Below, piece after piece: positions 22,709 through 30,470 of a stretch of DNA of 38,503 nucleotides. Source of the stretch: Bacteroidaceae bacterium (GTDB taxonomy: Bacteria > Bacteroidota > Bacteroidia > Bacteroidales > Bacteroidaceae). Location of the stretch: NCBI GenBank assembly GCA_017617335.1, contig JAFZWK010000043.1:1-38503 (forward strand), given 5' to 3'. Position numbers and translations under genes: made by a program. The notes under the pieces were generated by a model. The model was given only the letters and a program-made list of their open reading frames with translations. It ran no database searches and was not told the origin of the DNA. Every line of letters begins with the position of its first letter. Positions within the stretch are counted from its first letter, which is position 1.

Positions 22709-22970
22709 AGAAAACGGCCCTGTTTTTCTTTGCATGTCCGAACGGAAGTATCTTCGGCGCCAGCCAAAGTTACGAAAATTTCGGTTAAGCGAAGAGAAAA
22801 CAAAATGTTTTTTTTCTTGAGCGGAAGAAATTTGGAGCCAGCGGCTCAATAAGCGAGCACAAAACAAAGAGATTTCCTCCTTTTTTTGTCGAGCGGGAGA
22901 ATTCCGCCTGCGCCTGAGCACCAACTGGAGCGCAAGAATTTCGGCGCCAGCCCAAACAAAACCATACAGG
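22687..22970. repeat. Degenerate intergenic repeat cluster (GGCGCCAGCC, GAGCG and TTACGAA modules)
   Basis: This part of the 723-base gap between the PASTA gene and rpmH holds no gene. TTCGGCGCCAGCC occurs at 22,753-22,765 and again at 22,940-22,952. CAAAGTTACGAA occurs at 22,679 and 22,765. AAGCGAGC and GAGCGG units are scattered between. Positions 22,911-22,938 match 27,396-27,423 perfectly in inverted orientation. The pattern looks like copies of a dispersed intergenic sequence. Confidence 0.55.
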
Positions 22971-23018: not shown

Positions 23019-23192
23019 GTTTTTTCAGCGAAAGCGGGGTTTTCCCTCTGATGATGTTTCCTGTTGCAAGGCAACAAGCGTTGATGGAAGGGCTGGTGCT
23101 GAGAGTTCGCTCTCAAGCACAAGGCCATGACAGTAGCGCAAGGCTCGAAGAGCAAAACATCATTAGAGAGGTTTTAAAGGTTTTCTTTTATC
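23019..23192 (+). ncRNA. Structured element copy 1 (GGTTTT-box, multi-stem)
   Basis: Closing stem P1 pairs 23,046-23,059 with 23,155-23,168 (14 bp, one G-T pair). Hairpin P2 is GTTGC-aag-GCAAC at 23,063-23,075, P3 is a 10-bp stem at 23,096-23,120 with loop TTCG and one bulged A, and P4 is GCTC-gaa-GAGC at 23,143-23,153. GATGG lies between P2 and P3. GTTTT boxes flank P1: GTTTTTTCAGC and GGGGTTTTCC on the left, AGGTTTT and GGTTTTCTTTTATC on the right. A small GC-gaaa-GC hairpin sits between the left boxes. It lies between rpmH and the PASTA operon. Strand is set by the GGTTTT orientation and is not proven. Function unknown. Confidence 0.6.
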
Positions 23193-23235
23193 ATTTTCAA
23201 CTGAATTGCAGAAGAGCCGTTTTCTTTGAGAAATA

Positions 23236-23266
23236 TCATTTTGACGGATAATTGACGCAAATTGAC
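23236..23266. repeat. Three TTGACG units beside element copy 1
   Basis: TTGACG occurs three times within about 35 bases (near 23,230-23,265), each after an A/T-rich hexamer. The same core is found next to element copies 2 and 3 and in spacers of the polysaccharide cluster. Confidence 0.4.
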
Positions 23267-23301
23267 GTTCTCCCCCCAACGCAAACCTCCATAAAAAACA
23301 A

Positions 23302-23323
23302 AAAAGGAGTAAGGGGCTTACTT
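23302..23323 (-). terminator. Weak intrinsic terminator for rpmH
   Basis: On the - strand AGTAA, loop GCCCC, TTACT, followed by CC and a T-rich run. It lies about 40 bases after the rpmH stop. A second small hairpin (TCTGCG with CGCAGA, 23,342-23,359) directly abuts the stop codon. Confidence 0.4.
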
Positions 23324-23359
23324 CTTTTCTATTTCTGCATTTCTGCGCAAATCCGCAGA

Positions 23360-23518
23360 TTACTTCTTGCCGTGAACTTCGTCAGACACAGTCAGCTTCT
23401 TGCGACCTTTGGCGCGGCGGCTTGCCAATACTCTGCGACCGTTCTTGGTAGCCATTCTCTGACGGAAACCGTGCTTGTTGTTGCGGCGACGGTTGTGGGG
23501 TTGGAATGTTCTTTTCAT
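23360..23518 (-). CDS. rpmH: 50S ribosomal protein L34
   Basis: A 52-codon gene too short for most ORF filters. It encodes [20 protein letters not shown], then [20 protein letters not shown] and [12 protein letters not shown], the clear L34 pattern of the large ribosomal subunit (KRTFQP at the start, GFRxRM, GRxVLxxRRAKGR). Compared with the usual 44-47 residues it has a slightly longer C-terminus, normal for Bacteroidetes. It is read away from efp, sharing the 186-base gap between them. A TAATTTTG promoter lies upstream. Confidence 0.96.
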
Positions 23519-23564
23519 TTTCTTATATTCGTTTTATTGTTTGTACAACTTAGGATTCGGGGTG

Positions 23565-23594
23565 CAAAATTAGGACTTTTTTTTCAATCTGCAA
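23565..23594 (-). promoter_or_regulatory. Promoter for rpmH
   Basis: On the - strand TTG, 19 bases, then TAATTTTG. It lies about 47 bases upstream of the L34 start and faces away from the efp promoter. Confidence 0.6.
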
Positions 23595-23646
23595 AACTTT
23601 CCGTATATTTTTCGTCGATTCCGTTTCTCTTTTCACATTTTTTTCT

Positions 23647-23654
23647 TACCTTTG
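23647..23654 (+). promoter_or_regulatory. -7 element for efp
   Basis: TACCTTTG matches TAnnTTTG and lies 50 bases before the efp start. A clear TTG at the -33 position is not seen, only a T-rich stretch. Confidence 0.5.
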
Positions 23655-23704
23655 TGACCGATTTCAGACAAAAAGATTCAAAAAACAGTAAAATAACAAG
23701 CCTT

Positions 23705-24268
23705 ATGATTAATTCACAAGACATCAAGAAGGGCACCTGCATCCGCATGGACGGCAAGCTCTATTTCTGCATTGATTTCCTTCACCGCAAGCCAGGTAAG
23801 GGAAATACCATCATGAATGTAACCCTCAAGGACGTGGTCAACGGTGGCGTTATCGAGAAGCGCTTCAACATTGGCGAGCGCCTCGAGGATGTGCGCGTCG
23901 AGCGCCGTCCCTACCAGTACCTCTACAAGGACGGTGACGACCTCGTTTTCATGAACAACGAGACCTACGAGCAGATCACCATCTCCCCTGACCAGGTCAA
24001 CGGTGTGAAGTTCATGAAGGAGAGCGAGAACGTAGAGGTTGTTGTTGACGCCAGCACCGAGACCGTGCTCTATGCCGATGTGCCTGTCAAGGTACACCTG
24101 CAGATCGTATGGACCGAGCCAGGTCTGAAGGGCGACACCGCCACCAACACCTTGAAGCCCGCCCGCGTAGAGACAGGTGCAGAGATCCGTGTTCCCCTGT
24201 TCATCGAAGAAGGCGAGACCGTGGAGGTCGACAGCCGCGATGGCAGCTATCTGGGTCGTGTAAAGTAA
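23705..24268 (+). CDS. efp: Elongation factor P
   Basis: A 187-residue translation factor that relieves ribosome stalling at proline runs. The frame is open back to 23252, but the real start is ATG 23705 (MINSQDIKKGTCIRMDGKLY), because the upstream part covers rpmH on the other strand and a promoter. The three domains are present: a KOW-like domain with HRKPGKG, where Lys32 is at the site modified in many bacteria, then two OB domains ending GETVEVDSRDGSYLGRVK. Length matches the family (185-190). Codon use is strongly biased to C-ending codons, as expected for a highly expressed gene. Confidence 0.96.
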   Translation: MINSQDIKKGTCIRMDGKLYFCIDFLHRKPGKGNTIMNVTLKDVVNGGVIEKRFNIGERLEDVRVERRPYQYLYKDGDDLVFMNNETYEQITISPDQVNGVKFMKESENVEVVVDASTETVLYADVPVKVHLQIVWTEPGLKGDTATNTLKPARVETGAEIRVPLFIEEGETVEVDSRDGSYLGRVK

Positions 24269-24325
24269 GACATTTTTCCTCCCTCCCTCTGTGAAGAGGG
24301 CCATTTTAGATTTTTCTTACCTCAG

Positions 24326-24355
24326 AAGGGGTCCACTCGTTAGAGCAGGCCCCTT
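24326..24355 (+). terminator. Terminator hairpin after efp
   Basis: AAGGGG-t-CC pairs with GG-CCCCTT around a 13-base loop, followed by a C/T-rich run (CCCCTTTCTC). A smaller hairpin (CCCTCT and AGAGGG) lies just before it. The gap 24,269-24,650 holds this terminator, a short inverted repeat (CGAAATCC and GGATTTCG, 24,410-24,445) and the next promoter; I see no gene. Confidence 0.6.
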
Positions 24356-24505
24356 CCCCTTTCTCGTTCCATCGTCAAACAAAACCAATTTGAAAAGCGG
24401 AGGGGTGGACGAAATCCTCTCTTGTTGAAAATTTGGGGATTTCGACAGCAAATATAATGATATATGGTTGTCTGCTCTTATTTATTCAAAAAAATGCTTT
24501 TGGAG

Positions 24506-24536
24506 TTGGTGTTCTCAAAAAGATTTTGTATCTTTG
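24506..24536 (+). promoter_or_regulatory. Promoter for the Mfa2-like lipoprotein gene
   Basis: TTG, 20 bases, TATCTTTG. The start codon is 115 bases further on, so the leader is long and AT-rich. Confidence 0.65.
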
Positions 24537-24650
24537 TACCATGAAACATACCACATGTCCGACACCGATTTTTAATGTTATCATATAATGTGTTGTGAAT
24601 ATGATATACTTCTTTTGTGTTCATTAGTAAACGCATAAAAAAATAAATTT

Positions 24651-25811
24651 ATGAAAAAGAATTACAATTTCTTTAGTGTTCTTTTATTGCTTCTGTCATG
24701 GATGCTGATAAGTTGCGAGAAAGTGGACTTGTCGAGCGAGATGGAGAAGCAAAATGTGAAGGTGACTACACGTGCTACCACGTCTTTCTCGAAGGAAGAT
24801 TTTCCCATTAGTATCTATGCCTTGGATGCCTCAGGAAAGAAAGTAGCAGAACAAAGTATGAACGATGGTAACCAGACGTTGAACCTTAAATTGCCCCCAG
24901 GGTCTTACAGGATTGTGGCAAGAAATGAAACTGCTCTGGGATATGCAGACGTTACAGTAGCTTCTAAGGGACTGAGTGTGAGCATCACAATGGTACAGCA
25001 AAATGCACGAATCAGTATGAGTCTGTCAGGATTGCCTGACGAAATAAAGAATATTGGAGTGACAGTAAGTCCGTTATATACTGCACTGGAATTGAATGGG
25101 GAACTTTCTGGCTCTGGGACAAAATCTTTCGAACTAACGAAGGAGAATGATACTTGGAAAACAGGTGAGATTTTGCTTTATCCTTCCACTAGTTCTACAA
25201 CAACATTCACCTTGACTATATCGAGTGATTCGGAGCAAAAATCATATAGTTATGTCTATGGAAAACCTTTGGAACGCAACAGACCTTATAATTTTGTTGG
25301 CAATTATCAAGGAGGTGATGATGCATTCGATGTGACAGGATTGATTTATCTGGAAGATTGGGGTGAGGAGGAAACTGTGGAGTTTGAATTTGGACCTAAT
25401 GTGGAAGGAACTCTAGATGGAAACGGTGATCATTTGGTTGTTACCGAGAATCTGTATTTGTCTTTGATGGAATGGACTGATATTGTCTCTGCCAATAACG
25501 AAGGAAATCCCAAGCAGGCGAAAGAAATAGCAGCTGAGTATAGCGAAGGGGGAATGACGGGCTGGAGAATGCCAACAGCTGATGAAGCTAAAGAACTGAA
25601 GAACCTATATGGTGGTAGTCAGCTTGCCAGTTTGAATGAGTCTTTACAGACTTTGGGCGGAACTCCTTTGAGTGATATAGATGAGAAGGGTGACAAAGTG
25701 CGATATTTGTGTGACGATGGATTGAAAACATTCTCTTTTGCTGACAATACAACGGTATCAAATGCAGGGGCAAAGTCCACATACCGTCTCCGTCTTGTTC
25801 ATTCCAGATGA
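24651..25811 (+). CDS. Mfa2/FimB-like surface lipoprotein with a C-terminal GWRMPT motif
   Basis: A 386-residue lipoprotein. The signal peptide ends in WMLISC, with Cys22 as lipid site. Residues about 50-130 (FPISIYALDASGKKV, LNLKLPPGSYRIVARNE) and a second beta-rich part (RISMSLSGLPDEIKNIGVTV) resemble the two transthyretin-like domains of FimB/Mfa2 fimbrial anchor proteins. The last third contains GGMTGWRMPTADEAKELKNLY, like the G-W-R-x-P-T motif of DUF1566 and Fibrobacter-type surface proteins. The combination suggests a surface-exposed adhesion or fimbria-related protein. No fimbrillin gene is next to it, so it may stand alone. It is the first of two secreted-protein genes with their own promoters. 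Confidence 0.6.
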   Translation: MKKNYNFFSVLLLLLSWMLISCEKVDLSSEMEKQNVKVTTRATTSFSKEDFPISIYALDASGKKVAEQSMNDGNQTLNLKLPPGSYRIVARNETALGYADVTVASKGLSVSITMVQQNARISMSLSGLPDEIKNIGVTVSPLYTALELNGELSGSGTKSFELTKENDTWKTGEILLYPSTSSTTTFTLTISSDSEQKSYSYVYGKPLERNRPYNFVGNYQGGDDAFDVTGLIYLEDWGEEETVEFEFGPNVEGTLDGNGDHLVVTENLYLSLMEWTDIVSANNEGNPKQAKEIAAEYSEGGMTGWRMPTADEAKELKNLYGGSQLASLNESLQTLGGTPLSDIDEKGDKVRYLCDDGLKTFSFADNTTVSNAGAKSTYRLRLVHSR

Positions 25812-25853
25812 TTGTTGGTTTTCCTTTAAAAATCAAAAAAGAGAGCGAAAAAT

Positions 25854-25884
25854 TTGGTGGAATGGAGAAAATGACTTATTTTTG
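25854..25884 (+). promoter_or_regulatory. Promoter for the Lys/Ala-rich secreted protein
   Basis: TTG, 20 bases, TATTTTTG, 54 bases before the ATG at 25938. Confidence 0.6.
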
Positions 25885-25937
25885 CGGTGTGAGAACGTAA
25901 AAAAATAGGTAAAAACGTACAATTAAACTGACTGAAT

Positions 25938-26318
25938 ATGAAAAAGATTAAGTATTTGATTGCAGCATTGATGCTCTGCGCTCCCCTGCTGGTGAATGCC
26001 GACAGCCTGAGCGATAACAAGGCTAAGAGTGATCAGTATAAGCAGGAGATTAAGATCCTGACCCAGGAGATCAAAACGCTGAAGGCTAAGCAGAAACTGC
26101 ACCCTGAGGATTCTTCCCTGGCTGGCCAGATGGTGTCTAAGAAGGCTGAACTGGCTGAGGTGAAGAACAAGAAGAAGATCATTGACGAGGCTATCAAGAC
26201 TGAGAAGGCTAGCCAGAAGGCCGCTGATGCCGCTGAGAAGGCTAAGGATAAGGCTGAGAAGGCTACGAAGAAGGCTGCTGAGGCAGCTAAGAATGCTGAG
26301 AAGGCGAAGAAGAGCTAA
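25938..26318 (+). CDS. Secreted Lys/Ala-rich helical protein, function unknown
   Basis: A 126-residue protein. Residues 1-22 are a signal peptide (KYLIAALMLCAPLLVNADS). The rest is almost entirely helix-forming: a heptad-like middle (KSDQYKQEIKILTQEIKTLK), then a tail of Lys, Ala and Glu only (KAADAAEKAKDKAEKATKKA and so on). The tail resembles histone H1-like and TolA-like low-complexity helices, but this does not establish homology. No membrane anchor or lipid cysteine is visible, so it is probably periplasmic, perhaps a coiled-coil spacer or envelope-associated protein. It has its own promoter and terminator, so it is a single-gene unit. Confidence 0.75.
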   Translation: MKKIKYLIAALMLCAPLLVNADSLSDNKAKSDQYKQEIKILTQEIKTLKAKQKLHPEDSSLAGQMVSKKAELAEVKNKKKIIDEAIKTEKASQKAADAAEKAKDKAEKATKKAAEAAKNAEKAKKS

Positions 26319-26439
26319 TCGTATTATATATTAGGATATAAAGTAGTTTTTGAATGTTTTTTCTTTCCCCCTTTCGTAAATGGATTTCTGAAAAAAAGGG
26401 TAGGTCGTGAGACCTTTAGTTGAGAAAATGTAATTCGAT

Positions 26440-26475
26440 CAGCGGCTTCTGTGAAGAAGCTGCTGTTTTTTTATG
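26440..26475 (+). terminator. Intrinsic terminator after the Lys/Ala-rich protein gene
   Basis: CAGCGGCTTC pairs with GAAGCTGCTG (one G-T pair), followed by seven T. It is a textbook intrinsic terminator. Confidence 0.85.
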
Positions 26476-26531
26476 GTCTTACCAGGGGGGAAACGGTGAC
26501 GTTGACGGTTGAGGGTCAGGGGAGTTTTTAC

Positions 26532-26700
26532 AAAAACCAGGAAAACCCTTTCATTCTGATTACGACTGCGTCTTGAGAGGATGTGTTTGCGGGCTTTCCC
26601 CTGTGTGCAAGCACCCGGACAAAGCCTGCAACCCCATCATCACCCCTCTGGGGTTCAATCAGAATGAATGAAAAACCATCGCCCTTTGGGCTCAAAAACC
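26532..26700 (-). ncRNA. Structured element copy 2 (GGTTTT-box, multi-stem)
   Basis: Closing stem P1 pairs 26,550-26,561 with 26,657-26,668 (12 bp, perfect). P2 is ACCCC-tct-GGGGT at 26,642-26,654. The middle stem joins 26,590-26,597 to 26,621-26,629 (GGCTTT with AAAGCC, extendable) over an inner GTGC-aa-GCAC. P4 is a 3-bp ACG-CGT hairpin near 26,562-26,572. The element orientation is taken from the GGTTTT boxes, seen here as AAAACC on the + strand at both ends; a GCCC-aaa-GGGC hairpin lies between the two boxes at its 5' side (26,681-26,691). GATGG between P2 and P3 is present as CCATC. It lies in the convergent gap 26,319-26,764. Confidence 0.6.
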
Positions 26701-26764
26701 TACGTAGCACCCATGTCTATACATAACACCAAGAAGAAAACGACGGTGACTCTTTCTCTTGACT

Positions 26765-27337
26765 TCAGGCTTTCATGCGGCGATGCCACTGGCGGTATCC
26801 GTAGAAAACCATGAGGGTGTAGATGCCGTAGAGGAGGGCGCGGCCATAGATGCCTTTGTAGAGGTAGAGGCCGACGGAGATGGCGTCGACAACGAACCAG
26901 ATCCACCATTGCTGGATGTACTTGCGGGAGAGCATCCAGAGGCCGATGATGGAGAGGGCTGTGGTGAGGGCGTCGAGAAGGGGGACGTTGCTGTCGGTGA
27001 AGCGGACGAGGATGAAGGTGAGGGCTGCCCAGAGGATGAGGGCGATGGCGGCGAGGGGGAGATAGAGCCTGGGGGGAGTGGAGGTGATGGGGAGCTGGCG
27101 GCGGTTGGCTCCCTTGCCCTGACGATGACGGAGCCAGTAGAGGAGGCCGTAGATGCCTGCAAGGAGGTAGTAGACTTCCATACCGCAGTCGGCATAGAGG
27201 CCTTTGTCGAAGAGGACAAAGACGTAGATGAGGGGCATGATGGAGCCTACAACCCACATCCATGCGTTCTCGCGTATCTCGAGGATGAGGTAGAGGAGGC
27301 CGAGGGTGGTGCCGAGAAAATCGAGGAAATTTACCAT
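26765..27337 (-). CDS. pnuT: PnuC-family transporter, probably for thiamine (PnuT)
   Basis: A 190-residue protein with about seven hydrophobic segments, starting MVNFLDFLGTTLGLLYLILEIRENAWMWVVG, the standard PnuC N-terminus (written here as position 1-31 of the protein). Near the C-terminus is KYIQQWWIWFVVDAISVGLY, the W-x3-D-x5 type motif of the family, followed by KGIYGRALLYGIYTLMVFYGY. PnuC relatives move nicotinamide riboside; PnuT relatives move thiamine by facilitated diffusion. Assignment to thiamine rests on the TPP riboswitch and TonB receptor upstream on the same strand. No thiamine pyrophosphokinase gene follows, unlike in the Bacteroides operons I know of. Confidence 0.85.
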   Translation of the reverse strand: MVNFLDFLGTTLGLLYLILEIRENAWMWVVGSIMPLIYVFVLFDKGLYADCGMEVYYLLAGIYGLLYWLRHRQGKGANRRQLPITSTPPRLYLPLAAIALILWAALTFILVRFTDSNVPLLDALTTALSIIGLWMLSRKYIQQWWIWFVVDAISVGLYLYKGIYGRALLYGIYTLMVFYGYRQWHRRMKA

Positions 27338-27396
27338 TTAGTCATTTACGATTTAATCATTTACGATTTACTATTTACCATTTACTATTTACCATT
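27338..27396. repeat. ATTTACC/ATTTACG short tandem repeats
   Basis: The spacer between the TonB receptor and the permease is made of 7-11-base units (ATTTACGATTTA, ATTTACCATTTACTATTTACC). The same unit type recurs at 31,480-31,532 and, inverted, at 31,581-31,615. It is probably a variable-number spacer. Confidence 0.7.
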
Positions 27397-27423
27397 TCTT
27401 GCGCTCCAGTTGGTGCTCAGGCG
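27396..27423. repeat. 28-bp dispersed repeat, inverted copy of 22,911-22,938
   Basis: TTCTTGCGCTCCAGTTGG and the next ten bases are the exact reverse complement of 22,911-22,938, 4.5 kb away. Both copies are intergenic. A match this long and exact is not expected by chance. Confidence 0.8.
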
Positions 27424-27457
27424 AGCAAGCTCGGAGTCCCATTTAGTCATTTAGGGG

Positions 27458-29842
27458 TTAGAATTTGAGGGTGAGGGTGCCGAGGAGGGTGAAGCCGGAG
27501 AGGGGGATGTAGCCAATCTGGGTGAAGCGGTTGCCTTCTGGATTGCCTCCGCTGGCGTAGAGGGCGCTGTAGACCCATCCGCTGGTGGCTTGGTGGGCGT
27601 TGAAGAGGTTGTTGAGGTGGAGGCCGAAGATGGTTTGCTTGAGGCCTCGCTGACCGCAGGGGAGGGTGTAGCCGAGGGTGAGGTCGGTGCGGCTATAACT
27701 GGGGAGGGAGCGCTGGGTGGTGGCTGTATTGTCGAGGTACTGGCGGGAGACGAAGCCTGTGTGCCAGGTGGCCTGGAAGCCGTGGAGATGGAAGTCGGCA
27801 AAGCCGTTGACGATGGCGGAGGGGGAGAAGGCGAGGGTGGAGTGGTCGTAGTGGCGGACGGTGTATTGCTGTCCGTTGGTCCAGTCCCAGTCCTCGATGT
27901 ATTCGTCGAAGTCCTGGATGCGGTTCTGGCTGAGGGCTGCATTGGCCTGGAGGGAGAGCCAGGGGGTGAGGGTGAGGCCTGCGGTGAGCTCGATGCCGAG
28001 GCGGTAGCTGCGCCGAATGTTGGTGGTGAGGGACTCGCCGATGTCGCTGACCTGCCCTGTCTGTACGAACTGGTTGTGGTAGAGCATGGCGTAGAGGTTG
28101 GCTCCTGCGTTCCAGAGGGGACGGGTGAAGCTGTAGCCGAGCTCCATGTCGTTGAGTATCTCTGCACGTGGGGCGGGGTAGGCTCCGTTGTCGGTGAAGT
28201 TATTGCGCTCAGGCTCGCGATGGCTGAGGGCATAGGAGGCGTAGGCGTTGTGTCCGCTATGATGGAAGCTGATGCCTGCCTTGGGATTGGCGAAGTTGTA
28301 CTTGCGTGAGATGTCGAGCTGCTGGTTGGCGTAGGTGCCGTCGTCGAGGGCGTAGAACTTATCGTTGATGCCGCTGGTGGAGAAGCCCACGTGGCGGTAC
28401 TGGATGTCGCCAAAGATGTCCCAGGCGGGGGTGATGTGGCAGGTGGCCTTGAGGAAGGAGCTGATGTCGCTCTTGTCGGCGCTGCTGTCGTAGTACTGAT
28501 AGCGTCCTTGGGCGAGGATGGCTTGGCGCAGCTCAGGGTTTGCGACGTAGGTGAGATAGCCGTAGTGGGTGGCCTGGAAGTTCTGGAAGGAGGCTCCGCC
28601 GATGATGTCCCAGCGGCGATCCTGGTAGTTGGCGTTCCACACCATGCCGTAGGTGTCCTGGGAGAGTCCCTTCTGTCGCACGAAATCGGTGCGCTTGAGC
28701 AGGGAGCCGTCGGAGAGGGGATAGTCGGAGAGGCCGAACTTGGAGAGCTTGTTGCTGGAGCGGAACTCCTCGTAGTAGCCGTGCCCATGGGTGTAGTGGA
28801 TGGTTCCGCTGGTGCTCCAATGGGAGTTGACCTGATAGGCGAGGGAGAGGAGGTTGTGGTTCTGCCAGAAGTTATCCGTGGTGCGAGGCCAGAGGGAGCC
28901 GTCGGCCATCTGGTAGCGCGAGGTGCCAGCCGAGGGGTCGTAGCTGTCGTTGAGGTACTCGTAGAGGGTGTTGAAGCGTCCCAGACCTGCCTTGTAGAGG
29001 TCGTGATAGTCGAAGAGGCCTGTGCCCATGCCTCCGTAGTTCCAGTCGAGGAGCTCGCCGCTATCGACACCATTCCACGCCTGTCCCGTCTTCTCGTAGT
29101 TGCCGATGTTCTTGTAGCTGACCTTGATATTTCCGTCAGGATTGATCCACGTGATGCCAGCGAAGTAGCTTCCGCTGTTGCCTGAGGTGCCGTGCATATA
29201 GCCGTCTGTGCCTGTGTGGTGGTATGCGCCATCGAGGGAGAGGAAGCCGCGAGGGATGCGGATGCCAGTCATGCCCGTCGAGAAGTTGGCTCCCACGTTG
29301 TAGGTGTTGTATGAGCCATAGGAGGCGTTGACGTCGAGGGTGGGGAGATAGGACGACGACTTGGTGGTGAGGGCAATGGTCCCCCCAAAGGCTCCGTCGC
29401 CGTTGGTGCTGGTGCCCACGCCCCGCTGAATCTGGACGTTGTCGAGCAGGGAGGCATAGGAGTTGGTATTGGCCCAGAAGACACACTGGTCCTCAGGGGA
29501 ATTAAGGGAAACGCCGTCGAGGGTGACGTTGATGCGGCTATCGGCAGCCCCACGTATGCGCATGTAGGTGGTGCCTGTGCCCAATCCGTTCTCGCTCCAT
29601 GAGATGACGCCTGGAGTGCGCGAGAAGAGGAAGGGCAGCTCCTGGCCGGTGCGGCTGAACTGCTGGAGTTCCTGCAGGCCTATCCGACTGACTGCGAAGG
29701 GTGCGTTCTGAGGTGCCTTGACGGCCTTGACTATCACCTCGTTGAGTTCGTTGATCTTGATGGAGTCAGGTTCTGCAGCCAAGGCTGAGGAACCCAGGAG
29801 GGCACTGCCCATGAGTGCCACGGAAACACAAAGTCTGTTCAT
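27458..29842 (-). CDS. TonB-dependent outer-membrane receptor, probably for thiamine
   Basis: A 794-residue receptor. The signal peptide ends near ALAAEPDS. A plug domain occupies about 45-160 (NEVIVKAVKAPQNAPFAVSR, then LPFLFSRTPGVISWSENG, MRIRGAADSRINVTLDGVSL), followed by a 22-strand-type barrel rich in aromatic residues. It ends in LLGTLTLKF, with the terminal phenylalanine needed for barrel assembly. Length is normal (about 700-800). It is the first gene after the TPP riboswitch, so it should be switched off when thiamine pyrophosphate is plentiful, and it probably imports thiamine or a precursor with energy from TonB. The long reading frame in the other phase (27,451-29,232) is a shadow. 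Confidence 0.92.
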   Translation of the reverse strand: MNRLCVSVALMGSALLGSSALAAEPDSIKINELNEVIVKAVKAPQNAPFAVSRIGLQELQQFSRTGQELPFLFSRTPGVISWSENGLGTGTTYMRIRGAADSRINVTLDGVSLNSPEDQCVFWANTNSYASLLDNVQIQRGVGTSTNGDGAFGGTIALTTKSSSYLPTLDVNASYGSYNTYNVGANFSTGMTGIRIPRGFLSLDGAYHHTGTDGYMHGTSGNSGSYFAGITWINPDGNIKVSYKNIGNYEKTGQAWNGVDSGELLDWNYGGMGTGLFDYHDLYKAGLGRFNTLYEYLNDSYDPSAGTSRYQMADGSLWPRTTDNFWQNHNLLSLAYQVNSHWSTSGTIHYTHGHGYYEEFRSSNKLSKFGLSDYPLSDGSLLKRTDFVRQKGLSQDTYGMVWNANYQDRRWDIIGGASFQNFQATHYGYLTYVANPELRQAILAQGRYQYYDSSADKSDISSFLKATCHITPAWDIFGDIQYRHVGFSTSGINDKFYALDDGTYANQQLDISRKYNFANPKAGISFHHSGHNAYASYALSHREPERNNFTDNGAYPAPRAEILNDMELGYSFTRPLWNAGANLYAMLYHNQFVQTGQVSDIGESLTTNIRRSYRLGIELTAGLTLTPWLSLQANAALSQNRIQDFDEYIEDWDWTNGQQYTVRHYDHSTLAFSPSAIVNGFADFHLHGFQATWHTGFVSRQYLDNTATTQRSLPSYSRTDLTLGYTLPCGQRGLKQTIFGLHLNNLFNAHQATSGWVYSALYASGGNPEGNRFTQIGYIPLSGFTLLGTLTLKF

Positions 29843-29871
29843 TTCAGAAAAGAAGAAAATTTGTTCATACT

Positions 29872-29945
29872 CTCTACGCCAGCACTACCTGGTTCAGATA
29901 TTGGGGTGTGATCTCAGCGGCACAAAAAATGCCGCACCCCCGAAA
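29872..29945 (-). ncRNA. TPP riboswitch (THI element)
   Basis: On the - strand the conserved cores are clear: GCTGAGATCACACC, then CTGAACCAGGTAGTGCTGGC and GTAGAGAG. These correspond to the C-U-G-A-G-A-box and the A-C-C-U-G-A..G-C-x-x-G-C-G-U-A-G part of the THI element. The optional helix GTGCGGCATTTTTTGTGCCGC lies at the 5' side. It is 30-odd bases before the TonB receptor start. It is expected to repress translation or transcription when thiamine pyrophosphate binds. Confidence 0.93.
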
Positions 29946-29952
29946 ACGAGAG

Positions 29953-29983
29953 CAAAGTTACACCTTTTCCCTGAAATGACCAA
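29953..29983 (-). promoter_or_regulatory. Promoter for the thiamine uptake operon
   Basis: On the - strand TTG, 20 bases, TAACTTTG, directly before the riboswitch. The predicted transcript starts just upstream of the first riboswitch helix. Confidence 0.7.
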
Positions 29984-30018
29984 AAAAGATAAGGGAAAAA
30001 CGTGGATGAGGGAGATAT

Positions 30019-30046
30019 AGGGTCAAGAGTCTAGGGTCAAGAGTCT
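30019..30046. repeat. 14-bp tandem duplication
   Basis: AGGGTCAAGAGTCT occurs twice without a gap. An inverted partial copy (GACTCTTGAC) lies at about 30,273-30,282, on the other side of element copy 3. Confidence 0.75.
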
Positions 30047-30090
30047 GGAGTCGAAGGCGTCTTTTCAGTTGGGGGCAGGGGGAGATTTAA

Positions 30091-30250
30091 CCAAAACCAT
30101 AAAAACCTCTTTTGCTCAGGTTGAGACGATGTCTCTGATGCCGTGCCTGTGCCCTTTTCCTTGTGAACCAGTTCCCAGCTAAAAGCCCCCAGCCACACCA
30201 TCCATTCCTTTGGAATTTTCAACCTGAACAAAAGAAAAACCATGAAAACC
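30091..30250 (-). ncRNA. Structured element copy 3 (GGTTTT-box, multi-stem)
   Basis: Closing stem P1 pairs 30,109-30,124 with 30,219-30,234 (16 positions, 15 standard pairs and one that is G-T on the - strand). P2 is ATTCC-ttt-GGAAT at 30,204-30,216. The middle stem is weak (CTTTT with AAAAG, and GAAC-ca-GTTC at 30,165-30,174). P4 is GAGAC-gat-GTCTC at 30,123-30,135, overlapping the end of P1 by two bases. The joining segment has GATGG (CCATC on the + strand). AAAACC boxes occur at both ends on the + strand. It is oriented away from copy 4, 43 bases to its right. Confidence 0.6.
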
Positions 30251-30293
30251 GACGTTGACGATAGAAGGCTCTCGACTCTTGACTGGAAGCATC

Positions 30294-30470
30294 GGTTTTT
30301 TAGCGCAGCGTGGTTTTTCTCTTGAAAGTCATGATATCCCTAGGGATAGGTTATGGTATCGACGGGAAGATGGTGGAAGCAGGCTTCCAACCAGATTCAG
30401 GGCGATGGCAGAACATGGGCACAATAGTGCCAAGGACTTTCAAGAGAGGTTTTCCTTGTTTTCTTTTATC
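30294..30470 (+). ncRNA. Structured element copy 4 (GGTTTT-box, multi-stem)
   Basis: Closing stem P1 pairs 30,318-30,330 with 30,435-30,447 (13 bp, perfect). P2 is TATCC-ctag-GGATA at 30,335-30,348. P3 is TGGAAG-cagg-CTTCCA, 30,374-30,389. P4 is GGCAC-aata-GTGCC at 30,418-30,431. GATGG lies at 30,369-30,373. The left boxes are GGTTTTTTAGCG and GTGGTTTTTC; the right ones are AGGTTTTCC and TGTTTTCTTTTATC, the latter shared with copy 1. It ends 22 bases before the carbamoyltransferase stop codon, which lies on the other strand. Confidence 0.65.

Follow-up and report, generated by a model that had tools for sequence, protein, structure and literature searches.

Cloverleaf repeats in a Bacteroidaceae genome are probably the ends of small mobile elements built around a GxxExxY nuclease gene

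A contig of 38,503 nucleotides from a Bacteroidaceae bacterium (JAFZWK010000043.1, assembly GCA_017617335.1; this whole stretch is referred to as the window) contains four copies of a folded intergenic repeat between positions 23,019 and 30,470. What are these repeats, and why do they keep one shape while their letters differ? An original prediction, made from the sequence alone, saw in them selection on structure and offered two options, a structured RNA or the folded single-strand form of a nonautonomous mobile element. Our analysis indicates that the copies are probably the ends of small mobile DNA elements that, in full-length form, carry the gene of a GxxExxY nuclease between inverted cloverleaf ends. 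Below, G, C, and L numbers denote our genomes, contigs, and loci, G000 being the genome of the window (2.37 Mb, 62% complete).

All four copies lie where they had been predicted (Table 1) and fold, as proposed, into one shared architecture. In each, a closing stem (P1) encloses two hairpins (P2 and P4) separated by a long interrupted arm (P3), which gives a four-way junction, or cloverleaf. Folded as RNA, copies 1 to 4 have minimum free energy z-scores of -5.2, -1.9, -3.5, and -4.1, the weakest being copy 2, for which 7 of 200 shuffles were equally low. Folded as single-stranded DNA (ssDNA), they reach -4.8, -4.8, -7.1, and -7.0, and none of 200 shuffles was equally low for any copy. The inner side of the copies carries a GTTTTT-type box, a small hairpin (in most copies), and a second box, and the outer side carries GGTTTTnnnGGTTTT or a close variant. 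Matches to GGTTTTNNNNGGTTTT with at most two mismatches numbered 16 versus 3.3 expected (0 of 100 shuffles equally high), and 9 of the 16 fall at the copies, some of these being a single site in two registers. A GATGG joining segment, which had been described as common to all copies, is not general, as copy 4 has TTATGGT. No Rfam match overlaps any window copy, either at the gathering score or at E ≤ 10, in line with the initial failure to recognize a named RNA family.

A family of four proved to be too small. A covariance model built from 12 copies of G000 (R1) gave 22 matches in that genome at E ≤ 1e-3 and matches in at least 44 of 121 genomes of the genus, G000 included, a lower bound with 25 candidates scored per genome. 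The covariance-model search that had been suggested as a check on the prediction thus recovered many further copies, both in G000 and in other genomes of the genus. Among 40 relatives, the 16 genomes from other families gave no R1 match. Another model (R2) was run over 198 genomes of the order with 15 candidates scored per genome, a scan that does not bound the range of the family; it returned G000 and one weak match (G032), and elements in other Bacteroidales were reached through protein search. The GGTTTT pattern alone was tried as a marker and set aside; of its 14 genome matches, one (C37:75338) lies outside the R1 elements at E ≤ 1e-3. The stems of the copies do differ, as had been observed, but they look unrelated because the copies come from separate subfamilies, each with relatives elsewhere in G000. 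Among the matches listed there, the best relatives are 93% identical for copy 1, 95% for copy 2, 74% for copy 3, and 83 to 87% for copy 4.

Covariation bears out selection on the structure. In 108 distinct sequences (of 113 rows in alignment A5, identical rows being counted once), the covariation score is 0.607 versus 0.183 for shuffles and at most 0.101 for slid structures, and 80.3% of cells are paired versus 52.1% in shuffles, with the alignment fitted to the model structure, which favors that structure. The number of pairs changed on both sides (57 of 58) is indistinct from shuffles (mean, 55.0; 40 of 500 equally high). In the set matched by R2, fitted in the same way (148 distinct sequences among the 150 rows of A9, which are the best 150 of 175 matches), 87.2% of cells are paired and the score is 0.830 versus 0.201 shuffled and at most 0.133 slid. 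Most of the single-sequence folds listed give the cloverleaf unaided; exceptions include L030, L035, and L054.

The repeats occur as halves of a larger unit. Ten of the 22 R1 matches in G000 sit in pairs of one (-) and one (+) copy, with their inner sides facing. Among 29 gene-less pairs, 25 measure 322 to 409 bp and have inverted termini (the remaining lengths are 475, 479, 578, and 624 bp). The commonest form of the outer termini is ACAAAAACCnnnAAAACC / GGTTTTnnnGGTTTTTGT; terminal inverted repeats, by which DDE insertion sequences (IS) and miniature inverted-repeat transposable elements (MITEs) are recognized, are therefore present. Heterotypic pairs also occur, in which two ends have different stems and the same fold, and end combinations recur, L087 and L091 being the same pair in opposite orientations. 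Copies 3 and 4 had been listed as separate copies; their positions hold, but in spacing and termini they correspond to a single inverted unit. By inspection of the alignment, its two subfamilies are also those combined in the gene-bearing unit at G061:C4:23593-24490 (L149). The best reading is that the window holds nonautonomous, gene-less derivatives, namely one complete pair and two single ends. Elsewhere, an Abi_2 (PF07751) gene (L067:6442-7368, in G017:C20) lies between two element pairs.

Insertions differ between closely related genomes. The closest relatives found, G009 and G070 (elongation factor P 99% identical), both lack copy 1 at the site upstream of rpmH. Copies 3 and 4 lie in an argF/TonB-receptor stretch that measures 495 bp versus 29 bp in the comparison with G009 and 489 bp versus 2 bp in that with G070. 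The stretch with copy 2 measures 295 bp versus 13 bp in G009, which is without all three window insertions, and other repeats fill that region in G070. No R1 match is listed for G009 (67% complete) or G070 (97% complete) among the 25 candidates scored in each. Within G000, the homology of copy 1 to C50:26993-27140 (93% identical) ends 3 nt inside the right terminus and extends 78 nt past the inner side, and copy 2 is 95% identical to C50:16319-16467, with an outer-side homology limit of +3 nt. In many of the pairs listed, homology between differently flanked units stops at the terminus itself or a few nucleotides from it (0 and -2 nt for L015/L073; 0 and 0 nt for L080/L086). Presence and absence at matching sites and recurrent boundaries, the general marks of a mobile element, are both seen. 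A cis-acting structured RNA, terminator, or processing element, kept by descent for a host function, would sit well with the intergenic position of the copies in the window and their stable RNA folds. It is nevertheless very unlikely, given insertions that are missing from close relatives at conserved gene neighbors, near-identical copies in different flanks, inverted pairing, and the association with a nuclease gene described next.

The gene-bearing versions show what the window copies appear to derive from. In G006 and G061, an open reading frame (ORF) of the GxxExxY family (PF13366/TIGR04256) lies between paired elements, and in G017 one adjoins elements; the partner ORFs L067, L068, and L069 score 96 to 102 bits against PF13366 (cutoff, 22) and 96 to 98 bits against TIGR04256 (cutoff, 35). 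Across 90 loci, 85 of them with a GxxExxY ORF, R1 matches cluster around one subset of the genes, in a set that is not random, as 60 stretches are mainly lower-scoring PF13366 matches together with loci for which a nearby element was known beforehand. A tree of 88 GxxExxY rows places 12 of the 16 element-associated rows in one clade of 14 (support, 100/98); at L158, one of the four associated rows outside it, the element is ~790 nt away. A search of named genomes for this clade yielded 129 relatives, and the best 80 of the 129 loci were analyzed. An R1 element lies within 400 nt of the gene at 74 of these 80 loci, the expected orientation is found on at least one side at 71, and the full arrangement of (-) end, gene, and (+) end is found at 55. 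Adjacent left elements are (-) rather than (+) by 65 to 9, and right elements are (+) rather than (-) by 63 to 11. The full-length unit has a median length of 898 bp (range, 759 to 1358 bp; 55 loci), the gene end having been set at start + 430 for 70 of the 80 loci. Two ends of ~155 bp and a gene of ~440 bp leave ~150 bp, so that, by length, a second enzyme gene is unlikely.

Could another transposase move such repeats? Repeats resembling repetitive extragenic palindromes (REP) or bacterial interspersed mosaic elements (BIMEs), moved by a Y1 (HUH) transposase of the IS200 or REP-associated tyrosine transposase (RAYT) type, would share the folded single-strand ends, the divergent pairs, the intergenic location, and the many copies. 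However, of 10 genomes with elements, only two (G067 and G109) have a match to the Y1 family PF01797 above its cutoff, seven, including G000, have none at E ≤ 1e-3, and the gene in the full-length units is a GxxExxY nuclease. We rejected a Y1 or RAYT mobilizer on this rarity and consider it extremely unlikely.

The nuclease itself shows the marks of a PD-(D/E)XK enzyme. Residues E46, D86, E96, K98, and Q110 are invariant in alignments of 20 (A6) and 24 (A8) sequences, and by analogy with the superfamily they are presumably catalytic. An AlphaFold 2 model (pLDDT, 89.5; pTM, 0.83) was compared with PDB structures by using Foldseek; at E ≤ 0.001, it matched only four chains of SSO0001, a Cas4, and the match is partial (best E, 2.7e-4; TM-scores, 0.34 to 0.51). 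The next match was lambda exonuclease. Sequence-profile matches in the PDB at E ≤ 5 were only the endonuclease I entries 3cae and 1m0d, the junction-resolving enzyme of T7, at nonsignificant E values of 0.23 to 0.24. Seven records filed as plasmids (Prevotella, Treponema, Persicobacter, Sphingomonas, Gemmatirosa, Bernardetia, and Fusobacteria) contain nuclease matches at 29 to 42% identity, and the phage records gave no match. The family records TIGR04256 and PF13366 (PDDEXK_3) give no function.

Which strand folds can be read from the mismatches that the helices tolerate. Among matches of the + strand model, G.T outnumbers A.C by 95 to 35 at stacked helix positions (49 sequences versus 18), and G.A plus A.G outnumbers T.C plus C.T by 157 to 12. 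The bias is present at both ends of the units in the 80-locus set, with G.T versus A.C at 64 to 28 and G.A plus A.G versus T.C plus C.T at 98 to 2 for left ends, and 58 to 19 and 91 to 3, respectively, for right ends. In 128 sequences outside eight loci recognized as common to the R2 training set, the ratio of G.T to A.C is 139:48. The outward strand also exceeds its complement in ssDNA stability in 230 of 236 copies, by a mean of 7.0 kcal/mol, compared to a mean absolute strand difference of 2.5 kcal/mol in random 153-mers. Mismatch types and ssDNA energies thus point, at either end, to the outward-reading strand as the one that folds, and the two folded strands have in common that each reaches the 3' end of the element. 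This bias is not accounted for by folding of the nuclease mRNA, since at the left end the strand that folds is antisense to the gene.

The same strand data bear on an explanation at the RNA level, in which the cloverleaf is transcribed and serves the nuclease as a cofactor or guide RNA, like the omega RNAs of TnpB and IscB, with a scaffold that ends at the element border. The strand-specific fold with its preference for G.U wobbles, the position of the right end just 3' of the gene in the sense orientation, and a scaffold that stops at the terminus as in omega RNA would all suit it. Yet the left end is equally biased although it is antisense to the gene, and the 33 to 99 nt between the two matches in 25 of the 29 gene-less pairs leave scant room for two outward promoters. 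The use of a guide RNA is also not known for any PD-(D/E)XK enzyme, and on balance we regard this explanation as unlikely. Of the two options of the original prediction, the structured RNA is accordingly disfavored by the equal bias at both ends and the antisense left end, whereas the folded single strand of a nonautonomous mobile element is favored by the insertion differences, the unit boundaries, and the gene-bearing versions. Neither the pairing of the copies nor the nuclease partner formed part of that prediction.

GxxExxY genes of other clades also tend to sit between inverted arms. When upstream flanks were compared with reverse-complemented downstream flanks, 49 of 83 loci exceeded the 99th percentile versus 4 of 415 mismatched-locus controls, the 83 being the ORFs, out of 88, that have 150 nt or more on either side. 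The arms of the other clades carry other boxes (ATTCGTG, ATTCATG, TCTGTG, TTTGCG, and ATTAGTG), and with a box list that was picked after inspecting the arms, the best box points outward 205 times and the opposite way 62 times. Several box types track the nuclease tree, with one change over 8 rows for GGTTTW, one over 6 for ATTCATG, one over 2 for ATTAGTG, and two over 5 for ATTCGTG; the six box labels together require 9 changes versus 21.4 when shuffled (0 of 200 equally low). Repeated boxes (AAAATCTGAC, CGCATTAGTG, and CTTTGCG) were also noted in the arms at L135, L165, L112, and other GxxExxY loci of other clades. In a second clade, whose aligned members are 27 to 29% identical to the L149 nuclease, R2 cloverleaf matches flank the gene on both sides at L106/L180 (one place), L110, and L116. 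L178 shows such flanking matches weakly with R1, and L122 has two R2 matches in the same orientation. The box-bearing ends of the model are omitted in five of the six distinct second-clade matches to R2; therefore, fold and boxes can change separately.

This correspondence speaks to the idea that the nuclease gene, perhaps one of a defense-like kind, travels as a passenger and that the ends are moved by an enzyme encoded elsewhere in the genome. A passenger would account for G000, which is rich in copies but in which no GxxExxY gene was detected. It would not be expected that several box types track the nuclease clade, that genes as distant as those of the second clade also lie between cloverleaf matches, or that the motif residues are kept, and G000 is only 62% complete; we consider a passenger role distinctly improbable. 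If the nuclease is a passenger, the novelty of the elements falls.

The fold, its covariation and strand bias, the pairing, the recurrent termini, the insertion differences, the nuclease association, and the box correspondence of several types are direct observations. Beyond them, in the mechanism that we find most likely, the nuclease and its two folded ends form the mobile unit, and we infer that the ends are cut by the nuclease, that the element passes through an ssDNA form, and that it is then reinserted. The element would turn single-stranded during replication or by extrusion of its ends, and at each terminus the strand that points outward in the 5' to 3' direction and stops there would fold into the four-way junction, the P1 base of which would be bracketed by GGTTTT boxes. 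The nuclease would recognize its own box type plus the fold, with the boxes supplying clade specificity, and would cut at the base formed by P1 and the boxes. The freed element would be reinserted, or copied in, with help from the host, and gene-less units would be mobilized in trans.

Several observations weigh against this model. A lone PD-(D/E)XK nuclease is not known for strand transfer. The chief difficulty, the lack of any GxxExxY match in G000, may reflect incompleteness or loss. Among the 80 loci, 9 left and 11 right adjacent elements are in the unexpected orientation, and six (L251, L270, L274, L284, L286, and L287) are without an adjacent R1 element, although R2 detects both ends at L286. 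The strand tests were made on matches to a + strand model, which favors that strand, and the related sequences are not independent. The box correspondence is incomplete: TCTGTG fits the tree poorly (5 changes over 9 rows; 6 of 500 shuffles equally low), TTTGCG does not track it (4 changes over 4 rows), and 52 of 91 ORFs are without a box in three or more copies and were left ungrouped. Among the pairs listed, some homologies extend 17 to 81 nt past the terminus. An exact empty site was not obtained, the intergenic regions being altered in other ways too, and no target duplication of fixed length, a mark of DDE insertion sequences and MITEs, was found in 79 units, which show a weak excess of short matches with no dominant length (e.g., 10 versus 3.2 expected for one 3-mer register and 7 versus 1.9 for a 4-mer). 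Insertion into host hairpins was rejected as a rule. Units L236, L263, and L071 lie inside long flanking inverted repeats, but the complementarity between flanks lies above the 99th percentile of the mismatched controls for only 3 of 54 units with a gene and 2 of 25 without one, and above the 95th percentile for 8 and 5, respectively (medians, 12.5 versus 12 and 12 versus 10). Units with short or repeated flanks were omitted from this test and from that for target duplications.

TABLE 1. Positions of the cloverleaf ends and their parts in the window
Feature	Position	Strand	Details and basis
Gene-less complete unit, 376 bp	30090..30465		Left end (-), 68-nt spacer, right end (+); R1 matches, length, termini
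Copy 3, cloverleaf end	30090..30242	-	P1 30108-30124 with 30219-30235, arms 94% complementary; R1 match, folds
Copy 4, cloverleaf end	30311..30465	+	P1 30318-30330 with 30435-30447, 13 bp, 100% complementary; R1 match, folds
Left terminal repeat ACCAAAACCATAAAAACC	30090..30107	+	Read from sequence; terminus comparison
Right terminal repeat GGTTTTCCTTGTTTTCTT	30448..30465	+	Read from sequence; terminus comparison
Copy 1, single cloverleaf end	23037..23187	+	P1 23046-23059 with 23155-23168, arms 93% complementary; R1 match, fold
Copy 1 inner side: box, small hairpin, second box	23019..23043	+	Read from sequence; other copies similar
Copy 1 outer double box GGTTTTAAAGGTTTT	23170..23184	+	Pattern match
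Copy 2, single cloverleaf end	26530..26678	-	P1 26550-26561 with 26657-26668, perfect 12-bp stem read from sequence; R1 match, folds
Copy 2 outer double box GGTTTTCCTGGTTTT	26533..26547	-	Pattern match

The window contains other structured or repeated DNA near the copies. A thiamine pyrophosphate (TPP) riboswitch (Rfam RF00059; 29854-29951, - strand; 55.1 bits, gathering score 54.3) precedes a TonB-dependent receptor-like gene (27458-29842, -) and then a PnuC-like gene (26765-27337, -), both named by eye, which together likely form a thiamine uptake operon. A perfect 28-bp inverted repeat (22911-22938 and 27396-27423) belongs to a different dispersed repeat at ~27330-27455 that has many partial matches in G070, G088, and G051. 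Low-complexity repeats (e.g., GGGTCAAGAGTC and CGATGACGTTGACG) occur in intergenic DNA at 30010-30060 and in L007, L008, and L309, and some of them adjoin elements.

We are evenly divided on the wider proposition that GxxExxY nucleases serve as the enzymes of one-gene mobile elements that form a class not described before, with ends defined by a junction fold of the 3'-terminal strand and by clade-specific boxes, and with no DDE, HUH, serine, tyrosine, reverse transcriptase, or Cas1 enzyme. In a bolder version, the outward strand would possibly be transcribed and guide the nuclease. A lone PD-(D/E)XK nuclease with four-way-junction ends fits none of the mobility chemistries that we considered. 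Searches of the open-access literature returned no description of such elements; GxxExxY, PF13366, PDDEXK_3, or TIGR04256 are named without a link to them (e.g., in PMC8934634), and the open-access literature on rRNA intervening sequences, Prevotella or MITE-type repeats, and nuclease-only transposons held nothing matching. If the proposition is true, GxxExxY proteins, which are also present in distant bacteria, would gain a function, interspersed families of folded repeats in Bacteroidales would be accounted for, and a further type of nuclease would join the chemistries of DNA mobility. The many natural four-way junctions with one fold and differing letters are useful for learning how enzymes read DNA shape, and with a nuclease of ~150 residues the question is directly testable.

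Each of the closest known systems shares part of this design. The attC sites of integrons are recombined as a folded single strand, whereas the present ends are inverted around a nuclease gene. The gene inside the full-length units is a member of the GxxExxY proteins (TIGR04256; PF13366, PDDEXK_3), and the folds or sequences nearest to it are those of Cas4, lambda exonuclease, and T7 endonuclease I, with the SSO0001 match partial and the T7 match nonsignificant. IS200/IS605 elements and the TnpA_REP/REP system are likewise small, and their ends are recognized as folded ssDNA (PMC6006769). They depend on a Y1/HUH transposase, whereas the elements described here have a PD-(D/E)XK nuclease, inverted termini, and four-way-junction ends of ~150 nt. 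MITEs of the BrickBuilt type are gene-less and multicopy with inverted termini, and in Porphyromonas gingivalis BrickBuilt contains a minisatellite and has termini that match IS5-family elements (PMC4596501). Its different termini rule it out as the source of the window copies, which probably belong instead to elements with cloverleaf ends and a PD-(D/E)XK nuclease gene.

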